Assembly (NCBI RefSeq): GCF_045679555.1
Contig: NC_092092.1
Location: 10,416,690-10,480,689 of the forward strand
DNA from: Salvelinus alpinus
Lineage: Eukaryota > Chordata > Actinopteri > Salmoniformes > Salmonidae
DNA length: 64,000 nt
Reading direction: 5' to 3'
Part shown: positions 1 through 54,100 of the stretch, one piece after another
Position numbering within the stretch: position 1 is the first letter of the stretch
Layout of the letters: each line of letters opens with the position of its first letter
The notes under the pieces: generated by a model
What the model was told of the DNA's origin: nothing
The model's input: the letters and a program-made list of their open reading frames with translations, nothing else
The model's database searches: none
Translations under genes and position numbers: made by a program

Positions 1-299
1 AAGTTGTAAATGCCAGGAGGTTTGTCATTATTGATCGAAAACAATCATTTTTCCACCTCTCCCACACTTACTTTACAAAATTCAAACTTGCAATGCTTTT
101 CTTTCATTATTTGTTTTTTTATGCATGAATACAATTGCTCACTGTTCGTTGTTGGCATTTCCTGCCTAAGTTTGCTCACTTCGCCAATGAAGTAATCATA
201 AAAATAATTGGCAACATCAAATGGTTTTGTGATAAATAATTTAAATCATATTAAATTATTATACAAAATTCTTGCAACCAATAGAATGTTATATATATA
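1..299. other. AT-rich sequence, nothing assigned
   Basis: No convincing gene, RNA or repeat is visible here. The small open frame near the left edge has no recognisable domain and looks like chance. Confidence 0.4.
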
Positions 300-605
300 T
301 GGGAGATACAACAGTCCCAGCTCTGCAGATTTTGCTGCGAAGAGACAGAATCATTAGAGCATTTGTTTTGGTACTGTCCATATGTAGATTGTTTTGGTCG
401 TAGTTCAAGGAATGGCTGAAAAATTGCAACATTTACCTGGAGCTAACTCTGCAGATAGCACTACTGGGTGATTTGAAAAGTCATAGTCAATCGATCAATA
501 ATAACTTTAGCAAAAATGTTTATCTTAAATTTACAATCTGTAGAAACTATGAGAATAGAAAGGTTCAGAACTTTTGTGAAACAGCACAGTTAAAAATATA
601 TGGCA
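300..605 (+). mobile_element. 3' remnant of an L1/Tx1-like LINE
   Basis: Translation at 300-400 gives a C-x2-C ... ETESLEHLFWYCP pattern, the Cys/His/Trp cluster found after the reverse transcriptase in L1/Tx1 non-LTR elements. It is followed, in a shifted frame, by a Lys/Asn-rich stretch (INNNFSKNVYLKFTICRN) like the C-terminus of these proteins. Only this end is present and it is out of frame, so it is a dead 5'-truncated fragment. The next LINE begins directly after it. The assignment is by motif recognition only. Confidence 0.5.
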
Positions 606-607
606 AA

Positions 608-636
608 CAGGGGTATGGTGCCCCACCATACCCCTG
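608..636. repeat. Perfect 13-bp hairpin at the LINE 5' end
   Basis: CAGGGGTATGGTG at 608-620 is followed by a 3-nt CCC loop and its exact reverse complement at 624-636. It sits at the junction of the L1 remnant and the 2A LINE, 12 bp before the ATG at 648. It may be a 5' UTR structure of the LINE or a junction feature. Confidence 0.75.
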
Positions 637-647
637 TCTGCACATTA

Positions 648-727
648 TGCCCAGAATCTATTCTACCACGGCCATAAATCTGCTCCTTTTATTCCTTGTC
701 CCCAACGCTCTAGGCGACCAGTTTTGA
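648..727 (+). CDS. Short hydrophobic frame overlapping the 2A frame
   Basis: ATG 648 opens a 26-codon frame with a hydrophobic core (INLLLLFLVPNAL) that ends in TGA at 725-727, overlapping the start of the long LINE frame by a few bases. It is signal-anchor-like. It is either the true leader of the LINE protein, separated by a frameshift, or a short upstream ORF. The sequence alone cannot decide. Confidence 0.35.
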
Positions 728-3681
728 TAGCCTTTAGCCGCACCCTCATCCTACTACTCCTCTGTTCCTCGGGTGATGTGGAGGTAAACCCAGGCCCTGC
801 ATGTCCCCAGGCACCCTCATTTGTTGACTTCTGTGATCGAAAAAGCCTTGGCCTCATGCATATCAACATCAGAAGCCTCCTCCCTAAGTTTGTCTTACTC
901 ACCGCTTTAGCACACTCTGCCAACCCTGATGTCCTTGCCGTGTCTGAATCCTGGCTTAGGAAGGCCACCAAAAATTCTGAGATTTCCATACCCAACTATA
1001 ACACTTTCCGTCAAGATAGAACTGCCGAAGAGGCAGGAGTTGCAATCTACTGCAGAGATAGCCTGCAAAGTTCTGTCATACTTTCCAGGTCTATGCCCAA
1101 ACAGTTCGAACTTCTCATTTTAAAAATTAATCTCTCCAGAAATAAGTCTCTCACTGTTGCCGCCTGCTACCGACCCCCCTCAGCTCCCAGCTGTGCCCTG
1201 GACACCATCTGTGAATTGATCGCTCCCCATCTAGCTTCAGAGTTTGTTCTGTTAGGTGACCTAAACTGGGATATGCTTAACACCCCGGCAGTCCTACAAT
1301 CTAAGCTAGATGCCCTCAATCTCACACAAATCATCAAGGAACCCACCAGGTACAACCCTAAATCCGTAAACATGGGCACCCTAATAGACATTATCCTGAC
1401 CAACTTGCCCTCCAAATACACCTCTGCTGTCTTCAATCAAGATCTCAGCGATCACTGCCTCATTGCCTGTATCCGCTACGGGTCCGCGGTCAAACGACCA
1501 CCCCTCATCACTGTTAAACGCTCCCTAAAACACTTCTGCGAGCAGGCCTTTCTAATCGACCTGGCCCGGGTACCCTGGAAGGATATTGACCTCATCCCGT
1601 CAGTTGAGGATGCCTGGTCATTCTTTAAAAGTTACTTCCTCACCATATTAGACAAGCATGCTCCGTTCAAAAAATGCAGAACTAAGAACAGATATAGCCC
1701 TTGGTTCACTCCAGACCTGACTGCCCTCGACCAGCACAAAAACATCCTGAGGCGAACTGCAATAGCATCGAAGAGCCCCCGCAATATGCAACTGTTCAGG
1801 GAAGTCAGGAACCAATACACGCAGTCAGTCAGGAAAGCAAAGGCCAGCTTTTTCAAGCAGAAATTTGCATCCTGTAGCTCTAACTCCAAAAAGTTCTGGG
1901 ATACTGTAAAGTCCATGGAGAACAAGAGCACCTCCTCCCAGCTGCCCACTGCACTGAGGCTAGGTAACACGGTCACCACCGATAAATCCGTGATAATCGA
2001 AAACTTCAACAAGCATTTCTCAATGGCTGGCCATGCCTTCCTCCTGGCGACTCCAACCTTGGCCAACAGCCCCGCCCCCCCCCCCCCCCCCGCTGCTACT
2101 CGCCCAAGCCTCCCCAGCTTCTCCTTTACCCAAATCCAGATAGCAGATGTTCTGAAAGAGCTGGAAAACCTGGACCCATACAAATCAGCTGGGCTTGACA
2201 ATCTGGACCCCCTATTTATGAAACTGTCCGCCGCCATTGTCGCACCCCCTATTACCAGCCTGTTCAACCTCTCCTTCGTATCATCTGAGATCCCCAAGGA
2301 TTGGAAAGCTGCCGCGGTCATCCCCCTCTTCAAAGGGGGAGACACCCTGGACCCAAACTGTTACAGACCTATATCCATCCTGCCCTGCCTATCTAAGGTC
2401 TTCGAAAGCCAAGTCAACAAACAGATCACTGACCATCTCGAATCCCACCGTACCTTCTCCGCTGTGCAATCCGGTTTCCGAGCCGGTCACGGGTGCACCT
2501 CAGCCACGCTCAAGGTACTAAACGATATCATAACCGCCATCGATAAAAGACAGTACTGTGCAGCCGTCTTCATCGACCTGGCCAAGGCTTTCGACTCTGT
2601 CAATCACCATATTCTTATCGGCAGACTCAGTAGCCTCGGTTTTTCTAATGACTGCCTTGCCTGGTTCACAAACTACTTTGCAGACAGAGTTCAGTGTGTC
2701 AAATCGGAGGGCATGTTGTCCGGTCCTCTGGCAGTCTCTATGGGGGTACCACAGGGTTCAATTCTCGGGTCGACTCTTTTCTCTGTATATATCAATGATG
2801 TTGCTCTTGCTGCGGGCGATTCCCTGATCCACCTCTACGCAGACGACACCATTCTGTATACTTCTGGCCCATCCTTGGACACTGTGCTATCTAACCTCCA
2901 AACGAGCTTCAATGCCATACAACACTCCTTCCGTGGCCTCCAACTGCTCTTAAACACCAGTAAAACCAAATGCATGCTTTTCAACCGTTCGCTGCCTGCA
3001 CCCGCACGCCCGACTAGCATCACCACCCTGGACGGTTCCGACCTAGAATATGTGGACATCTATAAGTACCTAGGTGTCTGGCTAGACTGCAAACTCTCCT
3101 TCCAGACTCATATCAAACATCTCCAATCCAAAATCAAATCTAGAGTCGGCTTTCTATTTCGCAACAAAGACTCCTTCACTCACGCCGCCAAACTTACCCT
3201 AGTAAAACTGACTATCCTACCGATCCTCGACTTCGGCGATGTCATCTACAAAATAGCTTCCAATACTCTACTCAGCAAACTGGATGCAGTTTATCACAGT
3301 GCCATCCGTTTTGTTACTAAAGCACCTTATACGACCCACCACTGCGACCTGTATGCCCTAGTCGGCTGGCCCTCGCTACATGTTCGTCGTCAGACCCACT
3401 GGCTCCAGGTCATCTACAAGGCTATGCTAGGTAAAGTGCCGCCTTATCTCAGTTCACTGGTCACGATGGCTACACCCACCCGTAGCACGCGCTCCAGCAG
3501 GTGTATCTCACTGATCATCCCTAAAGCCAAAACCTCATTTGGACGCCTTTCCTTCCAGTTCTCTGCTGCCTGCGACTGGAACAAATTGCAAAAATCTCTG
3601 AAGTTGGAGACTTTTATCTCCCTCAACAACTTTAAACATCTGCTATCCGAGCAGCTAACCGATCGCTGCAGCTGTACATAG
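724..3681 (+). CDS. LINE ORF: 2A leader, APE endonuclease, reverse transcriptase
   Basis: An open frame of 985 codons without a stop. The N-terminus is hydrophobic (residues 7-14, TLILLLLC) and runs into GDVEVNPGP at residues 17-25, a perfect 2A core. The APE-type endonuclease follows: HINIRSL, VSESWL, YRPP, GDLNWD, IDIILTN and SDHCL, about residues 45-255. The reverse transcriptase lies around residues 480-760, with DLAKAFDSVNHHIL, GVPQGSILG and YADDTILY, then YLGVWLD and the usual L2-type C-terminal region. A homopolymer C run at about 2075-2091 encodes a proline tract. Position 724 is a TTG; the frame is open back to about 577 without an ATG. A separate overlapping frame starts at ATG 648 and stops at 727, so a one-base shift could have split the original start from the body. 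The first in-frame ATG lies after the 2A motif (MHINIR). Confidence 0.85.
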   Translation: MIAFSRTLILLLLCSSGDVEVNPGPACPQAPSFVDFCDRKSLGLMHINIRSLLPKFVLLTALAHSANPDVLAVSESWLRKATKNSEISIPNYNTFRQDRTAEEAGVAIYCRDSLQSSVILSRSMPKQFELLILKINLSRNKSLTVAACYRPPSAPSCALDTICELIAPHLASEFVLLGDLNWDMLNTPAVLQSKLDALNLTQIIKEPTRYNPKSVNMGTLIDIILTNLPSKYTSAVFNQDLSDHCLIACIRYGSAVKRPPLITVKRSLKHFCEQAFLIDLARVPWKDIDLIPSVEDAWSFFKSYFLTILDKHAPFKKCRTKNRYSPWFTPDLTALDQHKNILRRTAIASKSPRNMQLFREVRNQYTQSVRKAKASFFKQKFASCSSNSKKFWDTVKSMENKSTSSQLPTALRLGNTVTTDKSVIIENFNKHFSMAGHAFLLATPTLANSPAPPPPPAATRPSLPSFSFTQIQIADVLKELENLDPYKSAGLDNLDPLFMKLSAAIVAPPITSLFNLSFVSSEIPKDWKAAAVIPLFKGGDTLDPNCYRPISILPCLSKVFESQVNKQITDHLESHRTFSAVQSGFRAGHGCTSATLKVLNDIITAIDKRQYCAAVFIDLAKAFDSVNHHILIGRLSSLGFSNDCLAWFTNYFADRVQCVKSEGMLSGPLAVSMGVPQGSILGSTLFSVYINDVALAAGDSLIHLYADDTILYTSGPSLDTVLSNLQTSFNAIQHSFRGLQLLLNTSKTKCMLFNRSLPAPARPTSITTLDGSDLEYVDIYKYLGVWLDCKLSFQTHIKHLQSKIKSRVGFLFRNKDSFTHAAKLTLVKLTILPILDFGDVIYKIASNTLLSKLDAVYHSAIRFVTKAPYTTHHCDLYALVGWPSLHVRRQTHWLQVIYKAMLGKVPPYLSSLVTMATPTRSTRSSRCISLIIPKAKTSFGRLSFQFSAACDWNKLQKSLKLETFISLNNFKHLLSEQLTDRCSCT
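772..798 (+). other. 2A ribosome-skipping motif
   Basis: The nine codons read GDVEVNPGP, an exact match to the D-x-E-x-N-P-G-P consensus of 2A sequences. These make the ribosome skip the final Gly-Pro bond and continue, so the hydrophobic leader would be released from the enzyme body between residues 24 and 25. 2A motifs are known in several APE-type LINEs of animals. Skipping activity is inferred from the motif. Confidence 0.85.
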
Positions 3682-4064
3682 TCCATCGGTATATAGCCCA
3701 CCCAATTTACCTACCTCACCCCCCCATACTGCTTTTATTTATTTACTTTTCTGCTCTTTTGCACACCAGTATCTCTACTTGCACATGATCATCTGATGAT
3801 TTATCACTCCAGTGTTAATCTGCTAAATTGTAATTATTCGATTTATTGCCTACCTCCTCATGCCTTTTGCACACATTGTATATAGATTCTCTATTTTTCT
3901 ACCATGTTATTGACTTGTTTATTGTTTACTCCATGTGTAACTCTGTGTTGTTGTCTGTTCACACTGCTATGCTTTATCTTGGCCAGGTCGCAGTTGCAAA
4001 TGAGAACTTGTTCTCAACTAGCCTACCTGGTTAAATAAAGGTGAAATATATATATATATTTTTT

Positions 4065-4421
4065 TTAATCAGTAGAGAGCTTTTCATGTCTCTATTTTGG
4101 TTTGGTCAGGGTGTGATTTGGGTGGGCATTCTATGTTCATTTTCTATGTTTTGTATTTCTTTGTGTTTGGCCGGGTGTGGTTCTCAATCAGAGGCAGCTG
4201 TCTATCGTTGTCTCTGATTGAGAATCATACTTAGGCAGCTTTTTCCCACCTGTGTTTTGTGGGTAGTTGTTTTCTGTTTAGTACCTGACAGGACTGTTTC
4301 GGTTTCGGTTATTCACTTTGTTATTTTTTGTTTAGTGTTCAGTTTAAATAAAAAGGCATGAACACTTACCGCGCTGCGCTTTGGTCCGATTCCTCTTCAT
4401 CCGACGACGACACCCGTTACA
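4065..4421 (+). mobile_element. LTR-retrotransposon LTR remnant (fossil)
   Basis: The sequence resembles a very common salmonid long terminal repeat that ends in a GTTACA-type terminus. It carries an AATAAA-like signal near 4345. Only LTR-like sequence is seen, with no internal coding region beside it, so it reads as a solo or partial LTR. Its left end abuts the LINE tail. Family assignment is from memory. Confidence 0.45.
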
Positions 4422-8007: not shown

Positions 8008-10394
8008 ATTTTAACCTTTAATTAACCAGGAAAAGCCCGTTGAAAAAGCCCAAGGTCCAGTCTCTTTTTCAAGGGAGACCTGGCCAAGAAGGCAGCAACA
8101 ATCAAAACATTACAGAATTAAAACATGCAACAATACAATACAATTCAAAACATGATCCAGCCTAAAAAAAAGCATTTATACTCCTCTGTAACAGTCTCTC
8201 GCATTAAACATGTAAATTCATTCAGTGGCACTAACATATCTAGATGAAGCATGGCTTGTAGACTATTCCATACCTCTGGTGCACAAGACGAGAAGGCAGT
8301 CTTGCCTAATACTGTAAATGTCCTGGGGACTTTAAGTAGCAACCACCTAGCAGACCGGGTATGGTAACTGCTGGTGGTGAAGGAGACCAGACTACAGAGG
8401 TAAAGAGGGAGTTTACCCAAAAGGGCTTTGTAGATGAACACATACAAATGTAGCTTTCTGCGCATATAAAGTGAGGTCCAACCCACCATTTGGTACAAGG
8501 TGCAATGGTGGGTGAGTGACTTGGCATTTGTAATAAAGCGCAAGGATGCATGGTAAACAGAGTCCCAGTCTCTGTAAGACAGAGGAGGCTGCATGCATAT
8601 ACAACAAGTCACCATAATCAATTACAGAGAGAAAAGTGGCCTGAACAAGCTTCTTTCTAGCCATAAGCAGGAAGCTTATTACAAAAATAAAAAACAATTT
8701 CAATTAAAGCTTCATCAAAAGATTATGCATATGAACTTTAAAGGAGAACTTGCCATCCAACCATATACCTTGGTATTTGTAGGATGACACTTTTTCAATG
8801 GATAAGCCACCAGATGTGACAATGCTAGCCTTCTCTGTCTGAGTGTGAGCTCTGGTAAAGGTCATTCATTTAGTTTTTTGTACATTCAAGACCAGTTTGA
8901 GACCATAAAGGGAGGCTTGCGGTGCCTGAAAAGCAGTCTGGAGCTCTTCAACAGCCTGAACCAGAGGAGGAGCACATTAATATATGACTGTATCATCTGC
9001 ATACAGATACAACTTTGCTGGTTGCATCCTATGTCCCAAATTATTAATAAAAATTGAGAACACAGGAGCTAACATGGAACCCTGGGTCACACCTATATTA
9101 ATCTCAAGAAAGCTAGACTTGTGATTGTCAGTATATACACATTGTGTTCTGTCAGAAAAATAGTTCCTAAACCAATTTACTGCCCTTCACTGAGACCAAT
9201 GTTACTGAGTCTAGCTAGCAACAATTCATGGTCAACTGAATCAAATGCCTTTGATAAATCAACAAACAGAGCAGCACAATGTTGCTTTTAATCAAGTACA
9301 TTTATGATGTCATTTACCACTGCCATAGCTGCAGTTGTGGTGCTGTGCCCTGATCTAAAGACGGAACACTGCTCAGTATGTTATTTTCAATTAAGGCATT
9401 TTTTAACTGTGAGCTCACTAGGGATTCATAGACTTTGGCCAGGATAGGGAGTTTGGAGATAGGACCATAGTTATTAGCATCTGAGGGATCTCCACCCTTT
9501 AGCAGTGGGAGGACATAAGCTGATTTATAAATGCTGGGTATGGAGTTGGTCAAGAGACTCAAGTTGGAAATGTGAGCCACAGGTTCAGTAATAATACCAG
9601 CTGCTATCTTTAAGAGGTAGGGATCCAGGTTGTCTGGACCTGCAGACTTTTTAGTGTGTATTGCCTTTAGTGCTTTATAGGCCTCAGCATAAGAAACAGG
9701 CTCAAAGTTAAAATGGCTCACATGAGAGCCTATATCATAGTTGACTGTAACAGAGCTTACATTAGAGGCCTGGGCCCAATCCATTATCAAAAACTGAACC
9801 AGCAGATATGAAGTGCTTGTTAAAAAACCCTACAATATTGGCATTATCCTTCACTTCATTAGAATCAATCATCAGAACCTGACACTGATTTGATTAGCTT
9901 CCAGAACTTGGTAGGGTTGTTTAGGTTCTCTGTGACTGCGTTTAGATAGAAATCTGATTTGGACTTCCTGATCAATCCTGTACATTTGTTTTTAGCGCTC
10001 TGAAGGAGGCCCAGTCAACAGGAGCAAGTGTATGTCTAGCTTGAGCCCAAGAGATGTTTCTCTTTCAAATTAATTATGCCAAGTTATCTGAAAAACAGGG
10101 ATGGTCCCTTCCACTGATTCTAAATTTCTTAACATGGGCATGCTTATCACAAATGGACACACATTTCATATAAAAATAGTCCCAGGAAGTGTAAACATCA
10201 GGAATCAGACTTACTCTGTCAATATGATGGTACAGATCATGTAAGAACGCTTGCTCATCAAACTGTCTATAACAGGGTTTGGCTTTGGTCATGTTTGTAT
10301 TTCTAACACAAGCAATTGCATAGTGATCACTGACATCATTACAGAAAATCCCAGTCAATATGTATTTGTGAGGGGTATTCGGAATGTCCAATAG
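8008..10394 (-). mobile_element. Old L2-type LINE, 5'-truncated and decayed
   Basis: Minus-strand translation gives the end of an APE endonuclease (NDVSDHYAIACVR, near 10320), RT finger sequence (KSAGPDNLDPYLLK and VLPLLKGGD, 9480-9660) and the C-terminal region (YHASLRFITNA, THHCTLYQMVGW, GKLPLYL, near 8420-8530). The order matches the 2A LINE at 724-3681, so it is a diverged relative. The frame is broken many times and most of the RT core between 8700 and 9350 is unreadable. The 3' end at 8008 carries a CCTGGTTAATTAAAGGTTAA tail on the minus strand. The 5' end stops where an LTR fragment begins. Confidence 0.8.
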
Positions 10395-10660
10395 TGTCAC
10401 ACCCTGATCTGTTTCACCTGTCTTTGTGATTGTCTCCACCCACCTCCAGGTGTCACCTGTTTTCACCATTAGTCCCCGGTGTATGCATCCCTGTGTTTCC
10501 TGTCTCTCTGTGCCAGTTCGTCTTGTTTTGCCAAGTCAACCAGTGGTTTTCTTAGCTCCTATTTTTCCCAGTCTCCGTTTTTTTCCTAACCCTCCTGGTT
10601 TTTGACCCTTGCCTGTCCAGCCACCGAATCCGCCTGCCTGACCACTCTGGTCATTTAATC
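10395..10660 (+). mobile_element. Partial LTR of an LTR retrotransposon (fossil)
   Basis: It begins TGTCACACCCTGATCTG, the usual 5' end of a salmonid LTR family recalled as Gypsy-like, and matches that repeat for about 265 bp. No internal region is present. The 3' limit is approximate. Confidence 0.45.
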
Positions 10661-21790: not shown

Positions 21791-22017
21791 CTTGGATGAG
21801 AGAAATACAGTGATGAATGGATTCTGTAGTTTGCAGATAAGCTGGCTGATATATTGTAGAGGTGCTGTGATATGTCAATGTTGTATGGAGATCAGTATTT
21901 TACAGGTTTTAACAGTGCTTAAAGTTGTTGTATGATGATTGATAATAACTGTTCAATCCACTCAGGCATGTTTTTATTAATTGTCCCACGTTTTCCAGCT
22001 CCCTCCAGCAGCCCATG

Positions 22018-22466
22018 AGGTATGACTCCCCATGCACCTGTAACAGGACATCTGAGGTATGACTCCCCATGCACCTGTAACAGGACATCTGAGGTATGAC
22101 TCCCCATGCACCTGTAACAGGACATCTGAGGTATGACTCCCCATGCACCTGTAACAGGACATCTGAGGTATGACTCCCCATGCACCTGTAACAGGACATC
22201 TGAGGTATGACTCCCCATGCACCTGTAACAGGACATCTGAGGTATGACTCCCCATGCACCTGTAACAGGACATCTGAGGTATGACTCCCCATGCACCTGT
22301 AACAGGACATCTGAGGTATGACTCCCCATGCACCTGTAACAGGACATCTGAGGTATGACTCCCCATGCACCTGTAACAGGACATCTGAGGTATGACTCCC
22401 CATGCACCTGTAACAGGACATCTGAGGTATGACTCCCCATGCACCTGTAACAGGACATCTGAGGTA
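22018..22466. repeat. 37-bp minisatellite, about 12 copies
   Basis: The unit begins GAGGTATGACTCCCCATGCA and ends CCTGTAACAGGACATCT. The copies are almost identical, which suggests recent expansion or homogenisation. Three long minus-strand open frames here (Cys- and Gly-rich repeats) arise because 37 is not a multiple of three and no frame has a stop. Confidence 0.97.
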
Positions 22467-22614
22467 GAACAGTGCCTTTCATCTGATCACCATCTGGAAA
22501 TCAGCCTTCAGACTGATCAAGCAATGGATCCATCTCTAAATATTGATTACTTTAAAAAGTTGAAAGTATGCTACAGTATTTTTGGAGATGAGTGTTTTAC
22601 AAAGCCATTGCATC

Positions 22615-30609: not shown

Positions 30610-32190
30610 TACAGTGGGGAGAACAAGTATTTGACACACTGACGATTTTGCAGGTTTTCCTACTTACAAAGCATGTAAAGGTCTGTAATTTTTATCATAG
30701 GTACACTTCAACTGTGAGAGATGGAATCTAAAACAAAAATCCAGAAAATCACATTGTATGATTTTTTAGTAATTCATTTGCATTTTATTGCATGACATAA
30801 GTATTTGATCACCTACCAACCAGTAAGAATTCCGGCTCTCACAGACCTGTTAGTTTTTCTTTAAGAAGCCCTCCTGTTCTCCACTCATTACCTGTATTAA
30901 CTGCACCTGTTTGAACTCGTTACCTGTATAAAAGACACCTGTCCACACACTCAATCAAACAGACTCCAACCTCTCCACAATGGCCAAGACCAGAGAGCTG
31001 TGTAAGGACATCAGGGATAAAATTGTAGACCTGCACAAGGTTGGGATGGGCTACAGGACAATAGGCAAGCAGCTTGGTGAGAAGGCAACAACTGTTGGCG
31101 CAATTATCAGAAAATGGAAGAAGTTCAAGATGATGGTCAATCAACCTCGGTCTGGGGCTCCATGCAAGATCTCAACTCGTGGGGCATCAATGATCATGAG
31201 GAAGGTGAGGGATCAGCCCAGAACTACACGGCAGGACCTGGTCAATGACCTGAAGAGAGCTGGGACCACAGTCTCAAAGAAAACCATTAGTAACACACTA
31301 CGCCGTCATGGATTAAAATCCTGCAGCGCACGCAAGGTCCCCCTGCTCAAGCATGTCCAGGCCCGTCTGAAGTTTGCCAATGACCATCTGGATGATCCAG
31401 AGGAGGAATGGGAGAAGGTCATGTGGTCTGATGAGACAAAAATAGAGCTTTTTGGTCTAAACTCCACTCGCCGTGTTTGGAGGAGGAAGAAGAAGAACCA
31501 TCCCAACCGTGAAGCATGGAGGTGGAAACATAATTCTTTGGGGATGCTTTTCTGCAAAGGAGACAGGACGACTGCACCGTATTGAGGGGAGGATGGATGG
31601 GGCCATGTATCGCAAGATCTTGGCCAACAACCTCCTTCCCTCAGTAAGAGCATTGAAGATGGGTCGTGGCTGGGTCTTCCAGCATGACAACGACTCGAAA
31701 CACACAGCCAGGGCAACTAAGGAGTGGCTCCGTAAGAAGCATCTCAAGGTCCTGGAGTGGCCTAGCCAGTCTCCAGACCTGAACCCAATAGAAAATCTTT
31801 GGAGGGAGCTGAAAGTCCGTATTGCCCAGCGACAGCCCCGAAACCTGAAGGATCTGGAGAAGGTCTGTATGGAGGAGTGGGACAAAATCCCTGCTGCAGT
31901 GTGTGCAAACTTGGTCAAGAACTACAGGAAACGTATGATCTCTGTAATTGCAAACAAAGGTTTCTGTACCAAATATTAAGTTCTGCTTTTCTGATGTATC
32001 AAATACTTATGTCATGCAATAAAATGCTAATTAATTACTTAAAAATCATACAATGTGATTTTCTGGATTTTTGTTTTAGATTCTGTCTCTCACAGTTGAA
32101 GTGTACCTATGATAAAAAAAATTACAGACCTCTACATGCTTTGTAAGTAGGAAAACCTGCAAAATCGGCAGTGTATCAAATACTACCAAT
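30610..32190 (+). mobile_element. Tc1-like transposon, best preserved copy in the window
   Basis: The left end is TA-CAGTGGGGAGAACAAGTAT at 30610. The right end (GTATCAAATACT at 32173-32184) is the matching inverted terminus, shortened at its outermost bases. The transposase is on the plus strand and interrupted once. The element sits 28 bp before a remnant HNRNPH3 exon, inside what was its intron. Confidence 0.88.
30980..31979 (+). pseudogene. Tc1-like transposase with one frame interruption
   Basis: ATG 30980 opens 201 codons: helix-turn-helix DNA binding ([20 protein letters not shown]), a second HTH region ([17 protein letters not shown]) and the first catalytic Asp ([12 protein letters not shown]). 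Near 31490 a deletion of about 19 bp after VWRRKK shifts the frame. The remainder is open at 31473-31979 with [15 protein letters not shown], the second Asp in [10 protein letters not shown] and the Glu in [11 protein letters not shown], ending GFCTKY-stop. All three DDE residues survive. Usual family length is about 340 residues. Confidence 0.88.
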
Positions 32191-40151: not shown

Positions 40152-43100
40152 TCACTCTGTGAACTCTGGGGTCATGTGTAGTCTGAGTAGGTCCTGACCC
40201 CTTCTGATCACCATGGTGATGCTGTCGCTGGTCCTCACGGCATTGTAAATCTCCTCTGACGTGTTCACCTTGGTGCCGTTGATCTCCAGCACTATGTCAC
40301 CTGGCTTCATACCTGCCCTGTGGAGGGTTATAACAACACTGTCACCTAACGTCATGCCTGCCCTGTGGAGGGTTATAACGACACCATCACCTAACGTCAT
40401 ACCTGCCCTGTGGAGGGTTATAACGACACCATCACCTAACGTCATACCTGCCCTGTGGAGGGTTATAACGACACTGTCACCTAGCTTCATACCTGCCCTG
40501 TGGAGGGTTATAACAACACTGTCACCTAACGTCATGCCTGCCCTGTGGAGGGTTATAACGACACCGTCACCTAACGTCATGCCTGCCCTGTGGAGGGTTA
40601 TAACGACACTCACCTAGCTTCATACCTGCCCTGTGGAGGGTTATAACAACACTGTCACCTAACGTCATGCCTGCCCTGTGGAGGGTTATAACGACACCAT
40701 CACCTAACGTCATACCTGCCCTGTGGAGGGTTATAACGACACCATCACCTAACGTCATGCCTGCTCTGTGGAGGGTTATAACGACACCATCACCTAACGT
40801 CATACCTGCCCTGTGGAGGGTTATAACGACACTCACCTAGCTTCATACCTGCCCTTCATACCTTTACAGTGCATTCCACATTCGTTCATTCTTAAGTGTA
40901 TTTCACTGACGCATGAAGAAAGAATAAACAATGTACACATCACAGTTGAATTGAATATGGAGACCTTATACACGGACATTACACGGTGCTCACCTGTTGG
41001 CTGGAGAGCCCATGATGACCCGGTGGATCATGATCCCGTAAGTGACATCAGGGAAGGAGGGGTCCCTCAGCTTCAACTCGGCAATGATACTGCAACAGAA
41101 TAGACATCCAACTATGACTAAATCCTCCACTGTCATTCATCCTACCCCAGGTAGGTGATAGCTTTCCTGTTAACTCAGGTGCAGCGCAATAGCTGTCATA
41201 TGACCTTTACCTTGGAGTCAGGGTCAGCATCATGACGCCGATGTATCTCCGCTTGGTGTCCAACACCCCCAACTGAGACTCTAGGAGAGACAATCACAAA
41301 AACCTTACACTTCCAAAAAGTGCAAATAACTTAAAGGTATGGTCTTATTAACCTGGTCTCAGACCTGTTGGTGGTGTCTGACCTAGTCCTATTGTCACAC
41401 AATGACCATAAGAGCAAACATAGGGAATTGGCTCTTACTAGCTCTGACAAACAGATCTGGGACCAGGCTATGGCCCTTTGTCAGCACGGTAAAGTAACTC
41501 ACTCTTCTTGTCGGAGGCTTGGTTCAGGAAGTGTTTGACATGATCCGAGGGGATCGCGAAGGAGATCCCTGCCGTCACCTTCATGGTGTTGATGCCGATC
41601 ACCTCACCGTCCAGATTAATCAGAGGCCCTCCAGAATTCCCAAACTGCAAGACAGAACAATCCAGAAGCATTATTGATCATGTCATACATTTGGAGAACA
41701 TAAGGCTTTACTCTTACTAGCCCTGGTTTTGCAGAGAGGGGCTTGTGATGTGTGGTTGTTCATACAACTTGTTCCTTACAAGCTGGACGCACCGATTGTA
41801 CATTTATCTGGATAAGAGTGTCTACTAAATTACTACTGGCAATTAGTTCACATCCATGACCAGACCAGTGGAGTTACGTCGACGGCTGTGGACCGCAAAG
41901 CTTTACAAGCAGGTTAGTGTCACTGTCAATGCTTTACTAGCAGGTTAGGGTCACTGTCAATGATTTACTAGCAGGTTAGGGTCACTGTCAATGCTTTACA
42001 AGCAGGTTAGTGTCACTGTCAATGATTTACTAGCAGGTTAGGGTCACTGTCAATGCTTTACAAGCAGGTTAGTGTCACTGTCAATGCTTTACTAGCAGGT
42101 TAGGGTCACTGTCAATGCTTTACAAGCAGGTTAGTGTCACTGTCAATGATTTACTAGCAGGTTAGGGTCACTGTCAATGCTTTACAAGCAGGTTAGTGTC
42201 ACTGTCAATGATTTACTAGCAGGTTAGGGTCACTGTCAATGCTTTACTAGCAGGTTAGGGTCACTATCAATGCTTTACTAGCAGGTTAGGGTCACTGTCA
42301 ATGCTTTACTAGCAGGTTAGGGTTACTGTCAATGCTTTACTAGCAGGTTAGGGTCACTGTCAATGCTTTACTAGCAGGTTAGGGTTACTGTCAATGCTTT
42401 ACTAGCAGGTTAGGGTTACTGTAAACAGACCAGGGTACTCACATCGATGGCAGCGTCTGTCTGGATATAGTCCATGTTGGGTTTGGACAGACCCAGCTCC
42501 TTGCTGCCCCGCTGGACTGAAGAGACGATACCTGACGTGATGGTGTTCCTCAGGGCAAACGGGCTGCCCATGGCAACCACAAACTCCCCCTGACGCACAT
42601 CCGACGACAGCCCCAGAGATAGGGTAGGGAGAGGGTGCTACAGAGAAGAGAGAGACACAGTTAGAGGGTAGGGAGAGGGGGCTACAGAGACGACAGACGG
42701 AGAGGGTGCTACAGAGAGGAGAGGGTGATACAAAGAGGAGAGAGGTACGGAGAGGAGAGAGAGACGGAGAGGGTGCTACAGAGAGGAGAGGGTGATACAA
42801 AGAGGAGAGAGGTACGGAGAGGAGAGAGAGACGGAGAGGGTGCTACAGAGAGGAGAGAGAGACGGAGAGGGTGCTACAGAGAGGAGAGAGAGACGGAGAG
42901 TGCTACAGAGAGGAGAGAGAGACGGAGAGGGTGCTGCAGAGGGTGATACAGAGGAGACAGAAAGGGTGCTACAGAGAGGAGAGAGAGAGACGGAGATACA
43001 GAGAGGAGAGAGAGACGGAGATACAGAGAGGAGAGAGAGACGGAGATACAGAGAGGAGAGAGAGACGGAGATACAGAGAGGAGAGAGACGGAGAGGGTGC

Positions 43101-44280
43101 TACAGAGAGGAGAGAGACGGAGAGGGTGCTACAGAGAGGAAAGGGTGCTACAGAGGAGAGAGACGGAGAGGAGAGGGTGCTACAGAGGAGAGGGTGCTAC
43201 AGAGAGGAGAGAGACAGACCGAGAGGGTAGGGTGAGTGTCAGGTCTCCATCATAACCTCTTACCTGGGCATTGATTTTTATAGTGGCTATGTCCGCCACC
43301 TGATCGACGTCTTGCACAGTGGCGTTATACGTCTCCCCATTGGTTAGCTTGACCCGGACTCCTCTCTTATTGGCCACTACATGGGCATTGGTGACTATGA
43401 GCCCATCACTGCTGACAATGAACCCAGAACCGTTGGAGATGGGGACTTCCCGACCGGAGAACGGGTGCCTGTCAGTATCATAGGTGAACATTATATGTTA
43501 CGTTATTGTTCATTGGTTATAATGGACATTTAGAACGCCATTTCGCAACACCCCTAGATACACACACACATTGAAAGTCACAGGGTCAGCTGCAGTGCGG
43601 AGTCCCTGGATGGAGAGCAATTGTCGGTCAGGGTTTATCATCAACTTGGTCTCAGATCTGTATGTGCTCTTGCCAACATTGCCAATCCAAACATGACATG
43701 ATAATCAGTGACAATGAGTTGGTACGATAGCACAAACGGGACTGTCACTATTGTATTTTGTTATCAAAACAAACTAGCCTATCAAAGCGGTCATGTGATC
43801 TTACCGGCCGACGATTTCAATATACACGACAGCGGGCGTAGCTTTTTCCACCACATCCGCAATGAAGTTGAACTTGAATCGTGGACTGTCGGGTTTAAAA
43901 GGAGAGGCACAGTGGGCTGTTGGCAAGACACGTTCTAGGAACGAATCACAAAGTAGACCTCTCCTCTCACAAACGTTGTTTTCCTCGTCCCCTCTGAAAT
44001 GCAGAACTGCTGCACTACCGAGTCCCAACCCAACAGCAACTGACTTGAGGAAAGTAGTCCGCTCTGAGCCACTGCCCCTGTCGCCTCCTGCGCTCCAAAT
44101 GATCGGAACATTGTTGACATGACAGGTGTTTGCGTCTCCCGTTGAGTGCTGTTTGTAACCGACAGAAGCACCGGAAACTCGTCCTAGTGTTCGCTCGTTC
44201 AAAATGTAACATTTTCGGAGATATTCCCCAGTGTACCTCCTGATTATCCAGAAGAGCGGACGATTGACATGTGTTGACAT
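40152..44280 (-). CDS. HTRA2: HTRA2/Omi mitochondrial serine protease, complete
   Basis: Seven coding exons on the minus strand: 44280-43805, 43468-43264, 42637-42443, 41644-41503, 41280-41211, 41089-40994, 40317-40152. Phases agree and the joined frame is 449 codons (human 458). HTRA2 is a trimeric protease of the mitochondrial intermembrane space for protein quality control and apoptosis. The N-terminus is Arg-rich, with a hydrophobic segment at about residues 77-95. [20 protein letters not shown] begins the protease. The triad is His188 (TNAHVV), Asp218 (VADIATI) and Ser296 (GNSGGP). The PDZ domain covers exons 6-7 ([31 protein letters not shown]) and ends [11 protein letters not shown] 44280 is the first in frame with the exon. 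Introns 2, 3 and 6 each carry a minisatellite; those in introns 2 and 6 copy the next splice acceptor. Confidence 0.93.
40318..40852. repeat. 45-bp minisatellite copying the HTRA2 exon 7 acceptor
   Basis: About 12 units. On the minus strand each unit holds CCCTCCACAG then GGCAGGTATGA, that is the intron 6 acceptor plus the first bases of exon 7, followed by AGGTGA and TATAAC. Two units, near 40605 and 40835, have lost two bases and read AG-GTGAGTG, a consensus donor. Because 45 is a multiple of three, long minus-strand frames run through the array ([14 protein letters not shown] repeats); they are repeat artefacts unless the intron is retained. Confidence 0.95.
41905..42425. repeat. 31-bp minisatellite in HTRA2 intron 3
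   Basis: The unit is GCTTTACTAGCAGGTTAGGG then TCACTGTCAAT, about 17 copies. Two unit types, ACTAGCAGGTTAGGG and ACAAGCAGGTTAGTG, alternate in the left half. It ends about 20 bp from the exon 3 donor. Confidence 0.96.
42638..43230. repeat. Polypurine minisatellite copying the HTRA2 exon 3 acceptor
   Basis: Units of roughly 30 bp, GAGGGTGCTACAGAGAGGAG then AGAGAGACG. On the minus strand each reads as a pyrimidine tract, CTGTAG and CACCCTC, the intron 2 acceptor and the first bases of exon 3. About a dozen GTGCTACAG units occur, plus shorter GAGATACAGAGAG forms. The unit at 42663-42690 also repeats about 18 bp of exon 3 (AGGGTAGGGAGAGG). Plus-strand Arg/Glu-rich open frames here are artefacts. 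Confidence 0.95.
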
Positions 44281-45499: not shown

Positions 45500-47870
45500 C
45501 ATTACCCTGTGCGGTGGGCTGTAAAACTTATACGGGTTGCGTTCCTGCCCGACTACATTGCAGATACCTTGACGGCCCTGAAAGAACGTCACTGGACTCT
45601 ATGTAAACTGGAAACCATATATCCTGAGGCTGCATTTATTGTAGCTGGGGATTTTAACAAAGCTAATCTGAAAACAAGGCGAACCACTGCTTTTAATCAT
45701 GGCAAGGTGACCGGAAACATGACTGAATACAAACAGTGTAGCTATTCCCTCCGCAAGGCAATCAAACAAGCCAAGCGTCGGTATAGAGACAGAGTCGCAA
45801 TTCAACAGCTCAAACACGAGATGTATGTGGCAGGGTCTACAGACAATCACGGATTACAAAAAAAAAAAAAACAGCCCCGTCGCAGACACCGACGTCTTGC
45901 TCCCAGACAAATTAAACAACTTCTTTGCTCGCTTTGAGGACAATACAGTGCCACTGACACGGCCCGCTACCAAAACCTGTGGGCTCTCCTTCACCGTGGC
46001 CAACGTGAGTAAAACATTTAAACATGTTAACCCTCGCAAAGCTGCTGGCCCAGACGGCATCCCTAGCCGCGTCCTCAGAGCATGCGCAGACCAGCTGGCT
46101 GGTGTGTTTACAGACATATTATATCAATCCCTATCCCAGTCTGCTGTGCCCACATGCTTCAAGAGGGCCACCATTGTTCCTGTTCCCCAGAAAGTTAAGG
46201 TAACTGAGCTAAACGACTATCGCCCCGTAGCACTCACTTCTGTCATCATGAAGTGCTTTGAGAGACTAGTCAAGGATCATATCACCTCCACCCTACCTGA
46301 TACCCTAGACCCACTCCAATTTGCCTACCGCCCCAATAGGTCCACAGACAACGCAATCACACTGCACACTAACCTAACCCATCTGAGCAAGACGCATACC
46401 TATGTAAGAATACTGTTAATTGACTGCAGCTCAGCATTTAACACCATAGTACCCTCCAAACTCGTCATTAAGCTCGAGACCCTGGGTCTTGACCCTGCCC
46501 TGTGCCACTGGGTCCTGGACTTTGACGGGCCGCCCCCAGGTGGTGAGGATAGGAAACAACATCTCCACCCCACTGATTCTCAACACTGGGGCCCCACAAG
46601 GGTGCGTTCTCAGCCCTCTCCTGTACTCCCTGTTCACCCATGACTGCGTGGCCATGCATGCCTCCAACTCAATCATCAAGTTTGCAGACGACACTAGTGG
46701 TAGGCTTGATTACCAACAACGACGAGACGGCCTACAGGGAGGAGGTGAGGGCCCTCGGAGTGTGGTGTCAGGAAAATAACCTCACACTCAACGTCAATAA
46801 AACAAAGGAGACGATCGTGGACTTCAGGAAACAGCAGAGGGAGCACCACCCTATCCACATCGACGGGACAGTAGTGGAGAAGGTAGAAAGTTAAGTTCCT
46901 CAGCGTACACATCACGAACAAACTGAAATGGTCCACCCACACAGACAGCGTGGTGAAGAAGGTGCAACAGTGCCTCTTCAACCTCAGAAGGCTGAAGAAA
47001 TTTGGCTTGTCACCGAAAACACTCAAACTTCTACAGATGCACAATCGAGAGCATCCTGTCGGGCTGTATCACCGCCTGGTACGGCAACTGCTCCGCCCAC
47101 AACCATAAGGCTCTCCAGAGGGTAGTGAGGTCTGCACAACGCATCACTGGGGGCAAACTACCTGCCCTCCAGGACACCTACACCACCCGATGTCACAGGA
47201 AGGCCATAAAGATCATCAAGGACAACAACCACCCGAGCCACTGCCTGTTCACCCCGCTATCATCCAGAAGGAGAGGTCAGTACAGGTGCATCAAAGCAGG
47301 GACCGAGAGACTGAAAAAGAGCTTCTATCTCAAGGCCATCAGACTGTTAAACAGCCACCATTAACATCAAGTGACTGCTGCCAACATACTGACTCAACTC
47401 CAGCTCACTTTAATAATGGAAATTGATGGAAATTGATCAAAAATCTATCACTAGCCACTTTAAACAATGCCACTTAATATAATGTATATGTATATACTGT
47501 ACTCTATCATCTACTGCATCTTGCCATCTTTATGTAATACATGTATCACTAGCCACTTTAAACTATGCACTTTTATGTTTACATACCCTACATTACTCAT
47601 CTCATATGTATATACTGTACTCGATACCATCTACTGCATCTTGCCTATGCCGTTCTGTACCATCACTCATTCATATATCTTTATGTACATATTCTTTATC
47701 CCTTTACACTTGTATGTATAAGGTAGTAGTTGTGGAATTGTTAGGTTAGATTACTCGTTGGTTATTACTGCATTGTCGGAACTAGAAGCACAAGCATTTC
47801 GCTACACTCGCATTAACATCTGCTAACCATGTGTATGTGACAAATAAGATTTGATTTGATAGGTGCGGTA
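45500..47870 (+). mobile_element. Rex1/L2-like LINE, partial
   Basis: A longer copy of the family at 16655-17590. Readable pieces: the end of the endonuclease (AAFIVAGDFNKANLKT, near 45640), then after a deletion the linker (YSLRKAIKQAKRRYRDRV) and RT motifs KAAGPDGIPSRVLRACADQL, VALTSVIMKCFERLV, LLIDCSSAFNTIVPSKL, APQGCVLSPLLYSLF and FADDTS. The thumb and C-terminal region follow, ending AIRLLNSHH at 47364. The 3' UTR runs to a GATTTGATTTGAT tail near 47862. The frame shifts at least four times, so it is inactive. It begins inside the endonuclease, so it is 5'-truncated. Confidence 0.85.
45825..47364 (+). pseudogene. Reverse transcriptase pseudogene of the Rex1-like LINE
   Basis: The open pieces are 45825-46643, 46489-46779, 46640-46894 and 47002-47364, in changing frames. 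The catalytic FADDT box is intact in sequence, but the frame shifts close to it on both sides. Poly-A at about 45859-45871 also lies in the linker. No full protein can be read. Confidence 0.8.
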
Positions 47871-51168: not shown

Positions 51169-54100
51169 TCAGTCATTATGAATATTCTTTCTGTGAGTTC
51201 GCAGATGTCTTTTCAGACTTGATGCTAACTTCAAGTGAGTTCCACACAACTGACATTGTACTCCCTCACCTCTATGAGTCCTCATATGAACTGTCAGGTT
51301 TCCCTTCAGACCGAAGCATCTGCCACATTCATTACAGCGATGAGGTTTCTCCTCGGTGTGAGTCATCATATGCTTTGACAGGCTTCCATTCTCACCAAAG
51401 CATTTGCCACATTCTTTGCACCAAAATGGTTTCTCCCCAGTGTGAATCCTCATATGCTTTTTCAGGTTTGACCTGCAGAAAAAGGCTTTGCTACATTCTT
51501 TACACCGATGCGATTTCTGTTCCGTGTGCTTTTTCTGATGAAATTTCAGACCCCCTTTAGTCGTCAAGCATCTTCCACACACGTCACATTTAAAAGCCCC
51601 CCCTCTATGAACACCCATATGATTTTCCAGGTTCTCTTTGTGAAAGAAACATTTGCCACATTCGGTGCAGCAATATTGTCTCTCCTCCGTGTGACGCTTC
51701 ATGTGCCGGGTCAGGTAGCCGTTCAGGGTGAAACATTGTCCACATGTGTCGCACATGTATGGTCTCTCATCACTGTGCCGATTCCGCCGATGCCTCATCA
51801 GACTACGTGCTGCCGTAAAGCATTTTCCACACACGTCACATTTTAGATCAGGCAATCCACTGGTTTCTTTTCTTGGTCTCTCTTCACTGTGATGATTGTG
51901 TTGATGTCTTTTCAGATTCGCTGCTGTCGCCGAGAATTTCCCGCACACGCCAAATTTCAGATCAGGCGACTCACCGGTGTGTTTCCTTGGCCGTCCTCTT
52001 CCCCTCTTTGACCTTGACGGTGGTATTCTGCTCACCACTCCATCCACTTTTCCATTGTCACTGTCTGGGTTTACATCAGAGTGGGGCTGATAGTCACTGG
52101 TTGATTGGGACTCTCTGTTGCTCTCGTCTTCTGATTCTGTTTGGTTCTCTACCGTTCTGATGTTGATCGAGTCCCATATAGACTCTACGGCATCAGAGTC
52201 CACCGGCTCCAGATTGGCGCTCCATTCCTGCTCACAGTGCTGCTGGCCACAGTTAACCTCCTCTTCAGAAAGAGTGAGTTGCTGGAGGTCTGGAGGGAAG
52301 AAAGGATGAAAGAGCAAAATTAAAACACTGAAAAGTGACAAGAAATGGGGCTACTACCTACCTTTGACTGATTATTGGACTGAACACACCATGCATCCCA
52401 GTAAAATATAATAGGCTTACTCTTTCAGACACGGATTAGATACAATTTAATACAAAATGGCCTAAAATATAGATTATGAATAACAGTTTTTGCTGTGAAA
52501 TTGGTAGCCTCTAGCACACTCAGACGAGAGTGCTCTGAAATCGGAGTAGATAGCCAGAGTGAATTTATGAACGCACCCGGAATCATCTTCTACATGTGGC
52601 CGTGTCACTTAGAAATGAATAGCTCCTGCAAAGACGTTGGGAAATGCGAGTTGTCCGGCATCTAAGTTGGCGAGGGAACTCCTCACACAAAAAGTGGTTT
52701 AAATATTGTTATGAATATTCTCTGGTTATCGGAGTTCCACCTGCAACTCGAAACAGGTGTGTATAAGACACCCAGTGCCTTCCGAATCCAAAATGTAGAA
52801 AGTATTGCCAAGTAGAGGGTTGGTTGAAAATAAGTTAACCAGCTTAGCTATGCCGCTGGAGGTTTGATATAGATTCCGAATGCACTGTAAGTATAGGCAA
52901 AGTATTCAGACCCCTTGACTTTTTCCACATTTTGTTACGTTACAGCCTTATTCTAAAATTGATTAAATATTTGTTTTTCTCATAAATCTACACACAATAT
53001 ACCCCATAATGACAAAGCGAAAACAAGTTTTTATAAATGTTTACAAACTTAAACATAAACAGAAATACCTTATTTACATAAGTATTCAGACCCTTTGCTA
53101 TGAGACTTTGAAATTGAGCTCAGGTGCATCCTGTTTCCATTGATCATCCTTGAGCTGTTTCTACAACTTGATTGGAGTCCACCTGTGGTAAATTCAATTG
53201 AACGGACATGATATGGAAAGGCACACACCTGTCTATACAATAAAGTCCCAAGTTGACAGTGCATGTCAGAGCAAAAACTAAGCCATGAGGTCGAAGGAAT
53301 TGGTCCAGTGGAAACAAATGGGCTTGTATGAAATGAGACTCTCTTTGTCCACTAGCAAAGACTAGCAAAGCTTTGTCTATCAGGCAAATTACGTTTACAG
53401 AAGAGGAATTCCAAAATATAAGGGAGATTCTCAGTTGGTTGCTTGACTCCTCACGTCTCGTCCTCCATCCTCTCCTTGCCTCTTTTTCAAAAAGGTAAAA
53501 GGTAGTCAAGGAGAGGAGGCGAGAAGTGGAAAGAAATGTGCTTGTATGAAATGAGATTCTCCTTCTCCACTCATAGGTCATCGGGCACATGACGTTTACA
53601 GAGGAGGAATCCCAAACTGTACAGTATCAGTCAAGTCCAGGGTTTTTCTTTATTTTTACTATTTTCTACATTGTAGAATAATAGTGAAGACATCAAAACT
53701 ATGAATTAACTATGGAATCATGTAGGAACCAAAAACAAAGTGTTAAACAAATCAAAATATATTTGAGATTCTTCAAAGTAGCCACCCTTTGACAGCTTTG
53801 CATACTCTTGGCATTCTCTCAACCAGCTTCACCTGGAATAACACACTCACTTTCTGTCTCACACAGATCTTATTACACTGTTACCATCTGTTCTTGTACT
53901 CATGTTTCTTAACTTTGTATTATGACATTTCAGATATAGATATGACAATATTTTTATGACGTAGGTTATGATGTAGTGAACTACTTTTTCAAAGTAACTT
54001 AAACAGTAACAAAATACAGTGTATTCCTCTTAAGGATTGCTTTACTGTAGTTTTAACGTCTTCCAGTGTGATGTAATTGGTAGCTTGTTAAACTATATAT

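Follow-up and report, generated by a model that had tools for sequence, protein, structure and literature searches.

What does a 2A motif do in the reading frame of a fish retrotransposon? The sequence D-x-E-x-N-P-G-P directs ribosome skipping, and 2A motifs occur in some animal long interspersed nuclear elements (LINEs) of the apurinic/apyrimidinic endonuclease (APE) type. We analyzed a 64,000-nucleotide stretch of the Salvelinus alpinus genome (NC_092092.1, positions 10,416,690 to 10,480,689; hereafter the window, to which all coordinates refer) that contains a LINE with such a motif ahead of its APE and reverse transcriptase (RT) domains. Judged by its domains and its siblings, this element is a 5'-truncated copy of a very recently active, L2-like APE-type LINE with a single open reading frame (ORF), denoted here family A. 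Full-length copies encode a leader upstream of the motif, and the best explanation of this arrangement, which we consider probable, is that skipping at the motif, or StopGo, frees the leader from the APE-RT enzyme.

A 2A motif ahead of APE and RT domains

The GDVEVNPGP core, encoded immediately 3' of SRTLILLLLCSS, is the sole match to NPGP or D(V/I)ExNP in all six frames of the 64 kb, where base composition predicts ~4e-5 matches to D(V/I)ExNPGP. The APE and RT domains follow with no stop between them, and the RT part matches, by sequence, the LINE-1 ORF2p and R2 structures in the PDB. The main features of the copy, all on the forward strand, are as follows.

618..4051, +: LINE copy of family A, 5'-truncated, 97.9-98.7% identical to five extended siblings; the stretch shared by longer copies is 4.3-4.9 kb
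580..3681, +: frame open for 1033 codons from stop to stop, belonging to the element only from ~618 and lacking an ATG ahead of the motif
594..601, +: probable 5' target-site duplication, AAATATAT, an 8-bp match to 4044-4051; the match is AT-rich, so that the boundaries are uncertain
603..641, +: inverted repeat folding back on itself at the 5' junction (18 pairs around a loop of 3)
739..771, +: Arg and hydrophobic run RTLILLLLCSS, the upstream context of the 2A motif, with Arg -11, LLL and SG common to six families
772..798, +: 2A/StopGo core GDVEVNPGP, the bond predicted to be missing lying between Gly (793-795) and Pro (796-798)
862..1455, +: APE endonuclease domain, PF03372, residues 47-244 (Pfam match 2.7e-07)
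2356..3081, +: reverse transcriptase domain, PF00078, residues 545-786 (Pfam match 1.5e-31)
3972..4040, +: stable stem-loop at the end of the 3' untranslated region (UTR), before the A/T-rich tail (-25.4 kcal/mol, z -2.8)
4044..4051, +: probable 3' target-site duplication, AAATATAT, AT-rich, an 8-bp match to 594-601

An earlier sequence-only reading of the window had noticed the core after a hydrophobic run, with both domains behind it and no stop, and these observations hold. Its description of an intact 985-codon frame headed by the 2A motif does not: that frame began at a TTG at 724, a start that we rejected as a product of a bacterial start rule, the host being eukaryotic and the siblings starting upstream, whereas the actual frame is open from 580, and its first in-frame ATG is residue 45 of the 985 (nucleotide 856), at the very start of APE. 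Sibling homology begins at 618-620 and ends at ~4050, and comparison with the siblings indicates that the true start and the first ~80 codons are missing from the window copy. The copy is a 5'-truncated insertion, flanked by the probable 8-bp duplication and with the fold-back at its 5' junction. The fold-back repeats the first bases of the element, inverted, past the truncation point, and the siblings differ upstream of ~618; it is possibly a trace of cDNA snap-back. A long C run lies in the coding region (2071-2090); as the sibling matches are, over their whole length, 1-3 codons shorter, slippage may occur at this run.

APE and RT combined in one ORF define the element as an APE-type non-long-terminal-repeat retrotransposon, and it shows the dispersed copies, 5' truncation and short target-site duplication (8 bp, AT-rich and probable) of LINEs. 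The L2 assignment comes from the sequence-only reading and is plausible; we use the term L2-like. No Rfam family reached the gathering score in the region 1-4400, and none matched the 3'-end stem-loop at E<=10, although Rfam includes an UnaL2 3' element.

Full-length copies encode a leader with a signal-like start

In a search of the 2.37-Gb host genome, 144,958 first-look candidates were obtained, of which 46, with 98-100% identity to the query, were scored. The core is identical in all 46 (30/30 and 16/16), and this sequence, DVEVNPGP, conforms to the strict 2A pattern (D/G/C/N)(V/I)ExNPGP. The same upstream leader is present in 42 of the 46 copies, the exceptions being the window copy itself (L001), L022, L029 and L050. 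A search with the N-terminal part as the query found at least 150 loci; all 150 that were scored are identical over 164 amino acids, and ~83 of these, by hand count, contain the full 1108-codon frame. Family A is thus the product of a very recent burst, and elements with the 2A block were recently mobile.

The sibling frames extend further upstream than that of the window copy, typically to 1108 codons from stop to stop. From the first ATG, the full-length ORF has ~1,097 codons (1,097 in L018, with the 2A motif at residue 132), and 129 or 131 codons precede the 2A block in the five copies L002, L004, L006, L007 and L018. Three ATGs are clustered within 12 codons at the start of this ORF, and the third, with an A at -3, gives a leader of 128 residues, counted to the block's Gly. 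At the start of the leader stands a strongly hydrophobic, signal-like segment (2 of 2000 shuffles are equally hydrophobic), and a second hydrophobic run adjoins the 2A core.

The five extended loci share at least 4.3 kb (4.94 kb in one pair and 4.61 kb in another), including 0.65, 0.94 or 1.24 kb of 5' UTR before the ATG, depending on the pair. The unequal lengths may reflect 5' ends that are alternative or repeated. Within 1.25 kb before the ATG, none of these five loci has an open stretch reaching 100 codons, so that family A has no ORF1 of the usual size and differs from two-ORF L2 elements, which carry a separate upstream ORF1. No Pfam domain was identified in the leaders of families A and C (see below) or in a 92-residue part of the family E leader, and a scan of viral contigs for relatives gave no match.

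We infer that these elements use the motif to make two products. Translation would start at one of the three clustered ATGs in full-length copies, yielding first a leader of 126-139 residues that opens with the signal-like segment. The hydrophobic run, which would serve primarily as the exit-tunnel context needed by StopGo, together with SGDVEVNPGP would then stall the ribosome; the Gly-Pro bond would be skipped, releasing the leader, and APE-RT would be made as a separate protein starting with Pro. One message lacking an ORF1 could in this manner supply a leader routed to the endoplasmic reticulum (ER), with whatever role it may play there, and a cytosolic or nuclear enzyme.

The sequence-only reading had proposed a different use of the motif, in which a signal-like leader directly before 2A leaves part of the protein targeted and part free. 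A signal-like leader does exist in full-length copies, but it is not the 2A block: it lies ~100 residues upstream and is absent from the window copy. In the dual-targeting version of this idea, the hydrophobic run and 2A would themselves be the signal, with the skipped product cytosolic and the unskipped one exported, as for the 2A of sea urchin NLR proteins. The SpNLR2A sequences, described in passages of PMC4981915 as hydrophobic N-terminal 2As with both activities, do resemble the family-A block. However, the block is internal in full-length copies, at residue ~130, a separate N-terminal signal-like segment is found in families A, C, E and G and, more weakly, in F, and an exported APE-RT has no obvious use. 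We therefore regard dual targeting as quite unlikely, with some export/cytosol toggle being possible.

A 26-codon ORF in the second frame of the window copy (647-727, +; MPRIYSTTAINLLLLFLVPNALGDQF, read by hand) is also signal-like and ends just ahead of the 2A region. Sibling L022 has a version of it, MPRIYSTTPINLLLLFFVPNS, that is in frame with 2A.

The block is retained in related families

A second, broken LINE in the window served as the query for further families.

8172..10397, -: broken LINE assigned to related family D, truncated at the 5' end short of the site where an NPGP block would lie

Over its fragments, this element is 30-56% identical in protein sequence to the window LINE; its assignment to family D is inferred from neighbouring RT and N-terminal matches on C9, and all family labels were assigned by eye from shared text. 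The first set of 20 fetched N-termini comprised 10 of family B, 5 of family C with the block, 2 truncated ones of family C and 3 that were unclassified. A family-C N-terminal query then gave 151 matches, and 37 short pieces were taken among the matches listed: 36 chosen for covering the block, at 43-68% identity, and L114, which starts after it. Other matches starting past the block were left out, so that families without the block are under-sampled. NPG, NxGP or PGP is kept in some frame in 34 of the 37 pieces, the exceptions being L088, L097 and L114 (changes inside the block).

Family C is laid out like family A, with an ATG in good context, a signal-like start and 126 residues to ..NPG (122 in a copy with a four-residue deletion). 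It carries LVILLLLISGNVQPNPGP in 5 of 7 copies, one of these with a change in the run, the other two copies being truncated. Five copies share a 5' end ~410 nucleotides before the ATG, and the family hence has no ORF1. The typical blocks of families D, E and F are YIVMLLLLISGNVRPNPGP, RLAIILLLLLSGNVQSNPGP and CFIILLLLVSGNIHPNPGP, respectively, and that of family G is ALIVLLLMISGNVHVHPGP, with scattered changes in single copies of each. The family G form is SGNVHVHPGP: all 11 copies read have N at p12 (the D/N site) and H at p14, and 10 of them have H at p16, the other, L129, having Q; further block changes are present in L125, L126, L127, L128 and L130. At least 150 matches were obtained for family G; they are 88-100% identical over 66 residues, and their open frames span 66-408 codons. 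Family B is organized differently: none of the 10 N-termini read contains NPGP, 5 of the 10 have an upstream second ORF of at least 150 codons, and the one such ORF1 tested (L059) gave a GDSL-lipase Pfam match and is thus esterase-like.

Six families (A and C-G) share R-x-(hydrophobic)-LLL-xx-S-G-(D/N)-(V/I)-x-x-(N/H)-P-G-P immediately upstream of APE. In the six family-typical blocks, R-11, L-6, L-5, L-4, S-1, G0 and P-G-P are invariant, p13 is V or I, and p16 is N in five families and H in G. The canonical D and E occur only in family A; families C-G carry N at p12, and p14 is Q, R, Q, H and H in C, D, E, F and G, respectively, so that these blocks fall outside the strict core pattern and are counted as StopGo-like rather than as members. 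An L-rich run ending in (A/S/C)G is present in all six, as LLCSSG in A, LLLISG in C and D, LLLLSG in E, LLLVSG in F and LLMISG in G.

The block stands out against the rest of the leader. The 29-residue end blocks of A and C align with a score of 68, reached by none of 1000 shuffles; for the whole leaders the score is 32, which 48 of 300 shuffles attain. The leader middle of A does not align with those of C, E, F and G (30, 191, 159 and 83 of 300 shuffles reach the score), nor do the middles in the pairs C-E, C-G and E-G (156, 298 and 152 of 300); those of C and F align (0/300), and E-F (10/300) and F-G (26/300) are marginal. The block is thus retained although most of the leader has diverged. 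Identity in APE is 44-47% among A, B and C, and ~46% between A and C.

Leader lengths to ..PG are similar: 126 in C, F and G, 136 in E, and 128 or 139 in A (L018), with the figure for G taken from one broken copy and that for E from three copies, one of them frame-broken. The N-terminal hydrophobicity of the leader is reached by 7, 4 and 13 of 2000 shuffles in C, E and G, compared with 2 in A, and is weaker in F (92), the control, family B ORF2, giving 490.

A 2026 study of viral StopGo (passages of PMC12846837) describes an L-rich run ending in (A/S/C)G as a natural upstream context and defines an LLLLSG-like class, which family E matches exactly and C, D and F closely. According to these passages, natural variants with N12, H14 or H16 each show ~90% StopGo activity or more in reticulocyte lysate. 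The typical p12 and p16 changes of our families, together with the p14 H of F and G, fall within this tolerated set when each is taken by itself.

These observations bear on a second explanation, namely, that the block is retained for some other function, for instance as a membrane anchor within the protein or a signal-peptidase site, with StopGo operating in family A only or nowhere. The p14 Q or R of C, D and E fits this explanation, a membrane segment or a peptidase site could take the form of a hydrophobic run with S-G behind it, and cleavage close to the motif, for which signal peptidase is presumably responsible, is described for SpNLR2A6-P3A in passages of PMC4981915. Yet, an anchor or a peptidase site needs no N/H-P-G-P, P-G-P is invariant in the six family-typical sequences, and the p12 and p16 changes belong to the set active in vitro (PMC12846837, in part), so that we consider this explanation unlikely.

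A broader proposal, that the L2-like LINEs with a single ORF in this fish constitute a lineage making two products by StopGo, is more tentative, and we put it forward as possible although doubtful. In such a lineage, a secretory signal-led leader of ~126-139 residues and a free APE-RT would be produced, the cores would have drifted to non-canonical forms (NVQPNPGP, NVRPNPGP, NVQSNPGP, NIHPNPGP and NVHVHPGP), and the leader would stand in for ORF1; the two-ORF esterase family lacks the block. If so, StopGo would be a long-held device of a vertebrate LINE lineage rather than an oddity of one element; searches demanding E at p14 would miss the drifted cores; and natural non-canonical cores would widen the range of sequences known to support a reaction that is employed throughout biotechnology. 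The system would also make it possible to test directly how LINEs lacking ORF1 function, asking whether the leader is needed for retrotransposition and why a peptide of secretory type would be employed.

Variation within family A and points against two-product processing

The sequence-only reading had looked to sibling copies for conservation of D, E, N, P, G and P. All six residues are indeed kept in 46 of 46 copies; nevertheless, the copies come from a burst and are identical, and in so young a family such conservation does not show selection; we rejected it as a proof. Among the related families, the expectation is borne out in part: P-G-P and, mostly, N are kept, but D is replaced by N, and E by Q, R or H.

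In 25 intact family-A copies, the leader contains 15 non-synonymous and 9 synonymous variants, and the corresponding ratios are 1:3 in the hydrophobic run with 2A, 5:12 in APE, and 14:40 in RT and the rest; the query used to pick copies covered nearly all of the run with 2A, APE and RT, so that these three ratios, unlike that of the leader, are biased downward. The 5' UTR was rejected as a neutral yardstick because its alignment (42 sequences, with L001, L022, L029 and L050 dropped) was inflated by truncated or misaligned ends.

The 15:9 ratio would suit a third explanation, in which the leader is untranslated in the productive message, APE-RT is initiated at an ATG further downstream, and the block persists as a passenger from an earlier organization. 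The long APE-RT frame retained in the truncated window copy and the short ORF in an overlapping frame just upstream of the block (647-727) would fit as well. We nevertheless find this very improbable: the leader frame is open from the first ATG, and comparable in length, in family A, C, E and F copies (G being a relic, with stops in the one copy read), the block is retained among families only ~46% alike in APE (A-C), and we also count against this explanation that the first downstream ATG of the window protein lies at the very start of APE.

Release of the leader by StopGo, the explanation we prefer, has its own difficulties. The family-A copies are too alike to prove selection, and constraint on the leader sequence appears to be weak. 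Only family A has the canonical D and E, and the p14 Q or R of C, D and E is not among the active variants in the passages of PMC12846837. The ATG contexts of family A are not ideal, the window copy itself cannot make the leader, the start of the family D leader is unreadable, and that of G was read in one broken copy. Furthermore, an inhibitory effect of N-terminal signals on 2A can occur in cells and varies with the upstream residues (PMC2978324, in part). Skipping could therefore be incomplete, with some fusion product entering the ER; such an ER-bound fusion is possible and would be the surviving part of the sequence-only idea.

Other features of the window

An interspersed repeat at 4076-4277 contains a near-perfect hairpin (4178-4227) with a weak mir-154 score of 25.8 bits (gathering score 52), and similar stretches occur upstream of the L006 copy. 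Two overlapping ORFs at 30980-31979 look, from their translations by eye, like a frame-broken Tc1-like transposase, and a fragment of a different RT at 45957-46695 is 26-39% identical to the window LINE. Tandem repeats are present at 21909-22482 (open in several frames) and at 40152-40613, the latter running into an HtrA-like PDZ segment, with another HtrA-like piece at 43801-44280 (both by eye). A 390-codon ORF at 51169-52341 (-) reads by eye as a C2H2 zinc-finger protein.

Comparison with known systems

Odon et al. 2013 reportedly describes 2A-bearing APE-type LINEs of multicellular animals; these elements are like family A in being of the APE type and in having a canonical D-V-E-x-N-P-G-P near the start of the RT ORF. 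The presence of 2A in APE-type LINEs is thus already known, and the altered cores combined with a signal-led leader look like a new variant. Among the literature matches listed, there were none for 2A in salmonid or other fish L2 LINEs and none for the altered-core series or a signal-led leader in fish LINEs; the key papers on 2A in animal LINEs lay outside this search, and we do not claim absence from print. Within the literature searched, one paper contains the exact GDVEVNPGP, in a table listing sequences of picornaviruses. Of six related core strings, five gave no hit and DVHPNPGP appeared only in a mycovirus paper; NVHVHPGP was not among the strings searched.

UnaL2 has a single ORF. ZfL2-2, a fish L2 LINE without ORF1p (PMC3880073, in part), is like family A an APE-RT LINE lacking ORF1. 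Recognition of a 3'-end stem-loop is described for LINEs of the stringent type (PMC5135761, PMC4176376).

The sea urchin NLR 2A (Roulston et al. 2016, PMC4981915, in part) is similar to that of family A in having a hydrophobic run directly before DVExNPGP, with secretory coupling considered. There, however, the 2A is the N-terminus itself (26 amino acids) and also the signal, whereas in family A it is internal, at residue 132 of the L018 ORF, with a separate signal-like segment ahead. With the LLLLSG-like class of viral StopGo (passages of PMC12846837), our families share the L-rich run ending in SG before the octapeptide and residues active there, N at p12, H at p14 and H at p16; the viral sequences differ in coming from RNA viruses, where they lie between parts of polyproteins, and Q or R at p14 is not among the variants these passages report.

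Among L2 subgroups (passages of PMC4120745), some have a single ORF with an N-terminal PHD domain and others have esterase-type ORF1s, which the esterase-like ORF1 of family B resembles. The terms "signal peptide" and "transmembrane" are absent from the main text of that paper, and the leaders of A, C and the tested part of E, unlike the PHD-bearing subgroups, contain no Pfam domain. What these L2 subgroups and the families described here have in common is a modular N-terminus.

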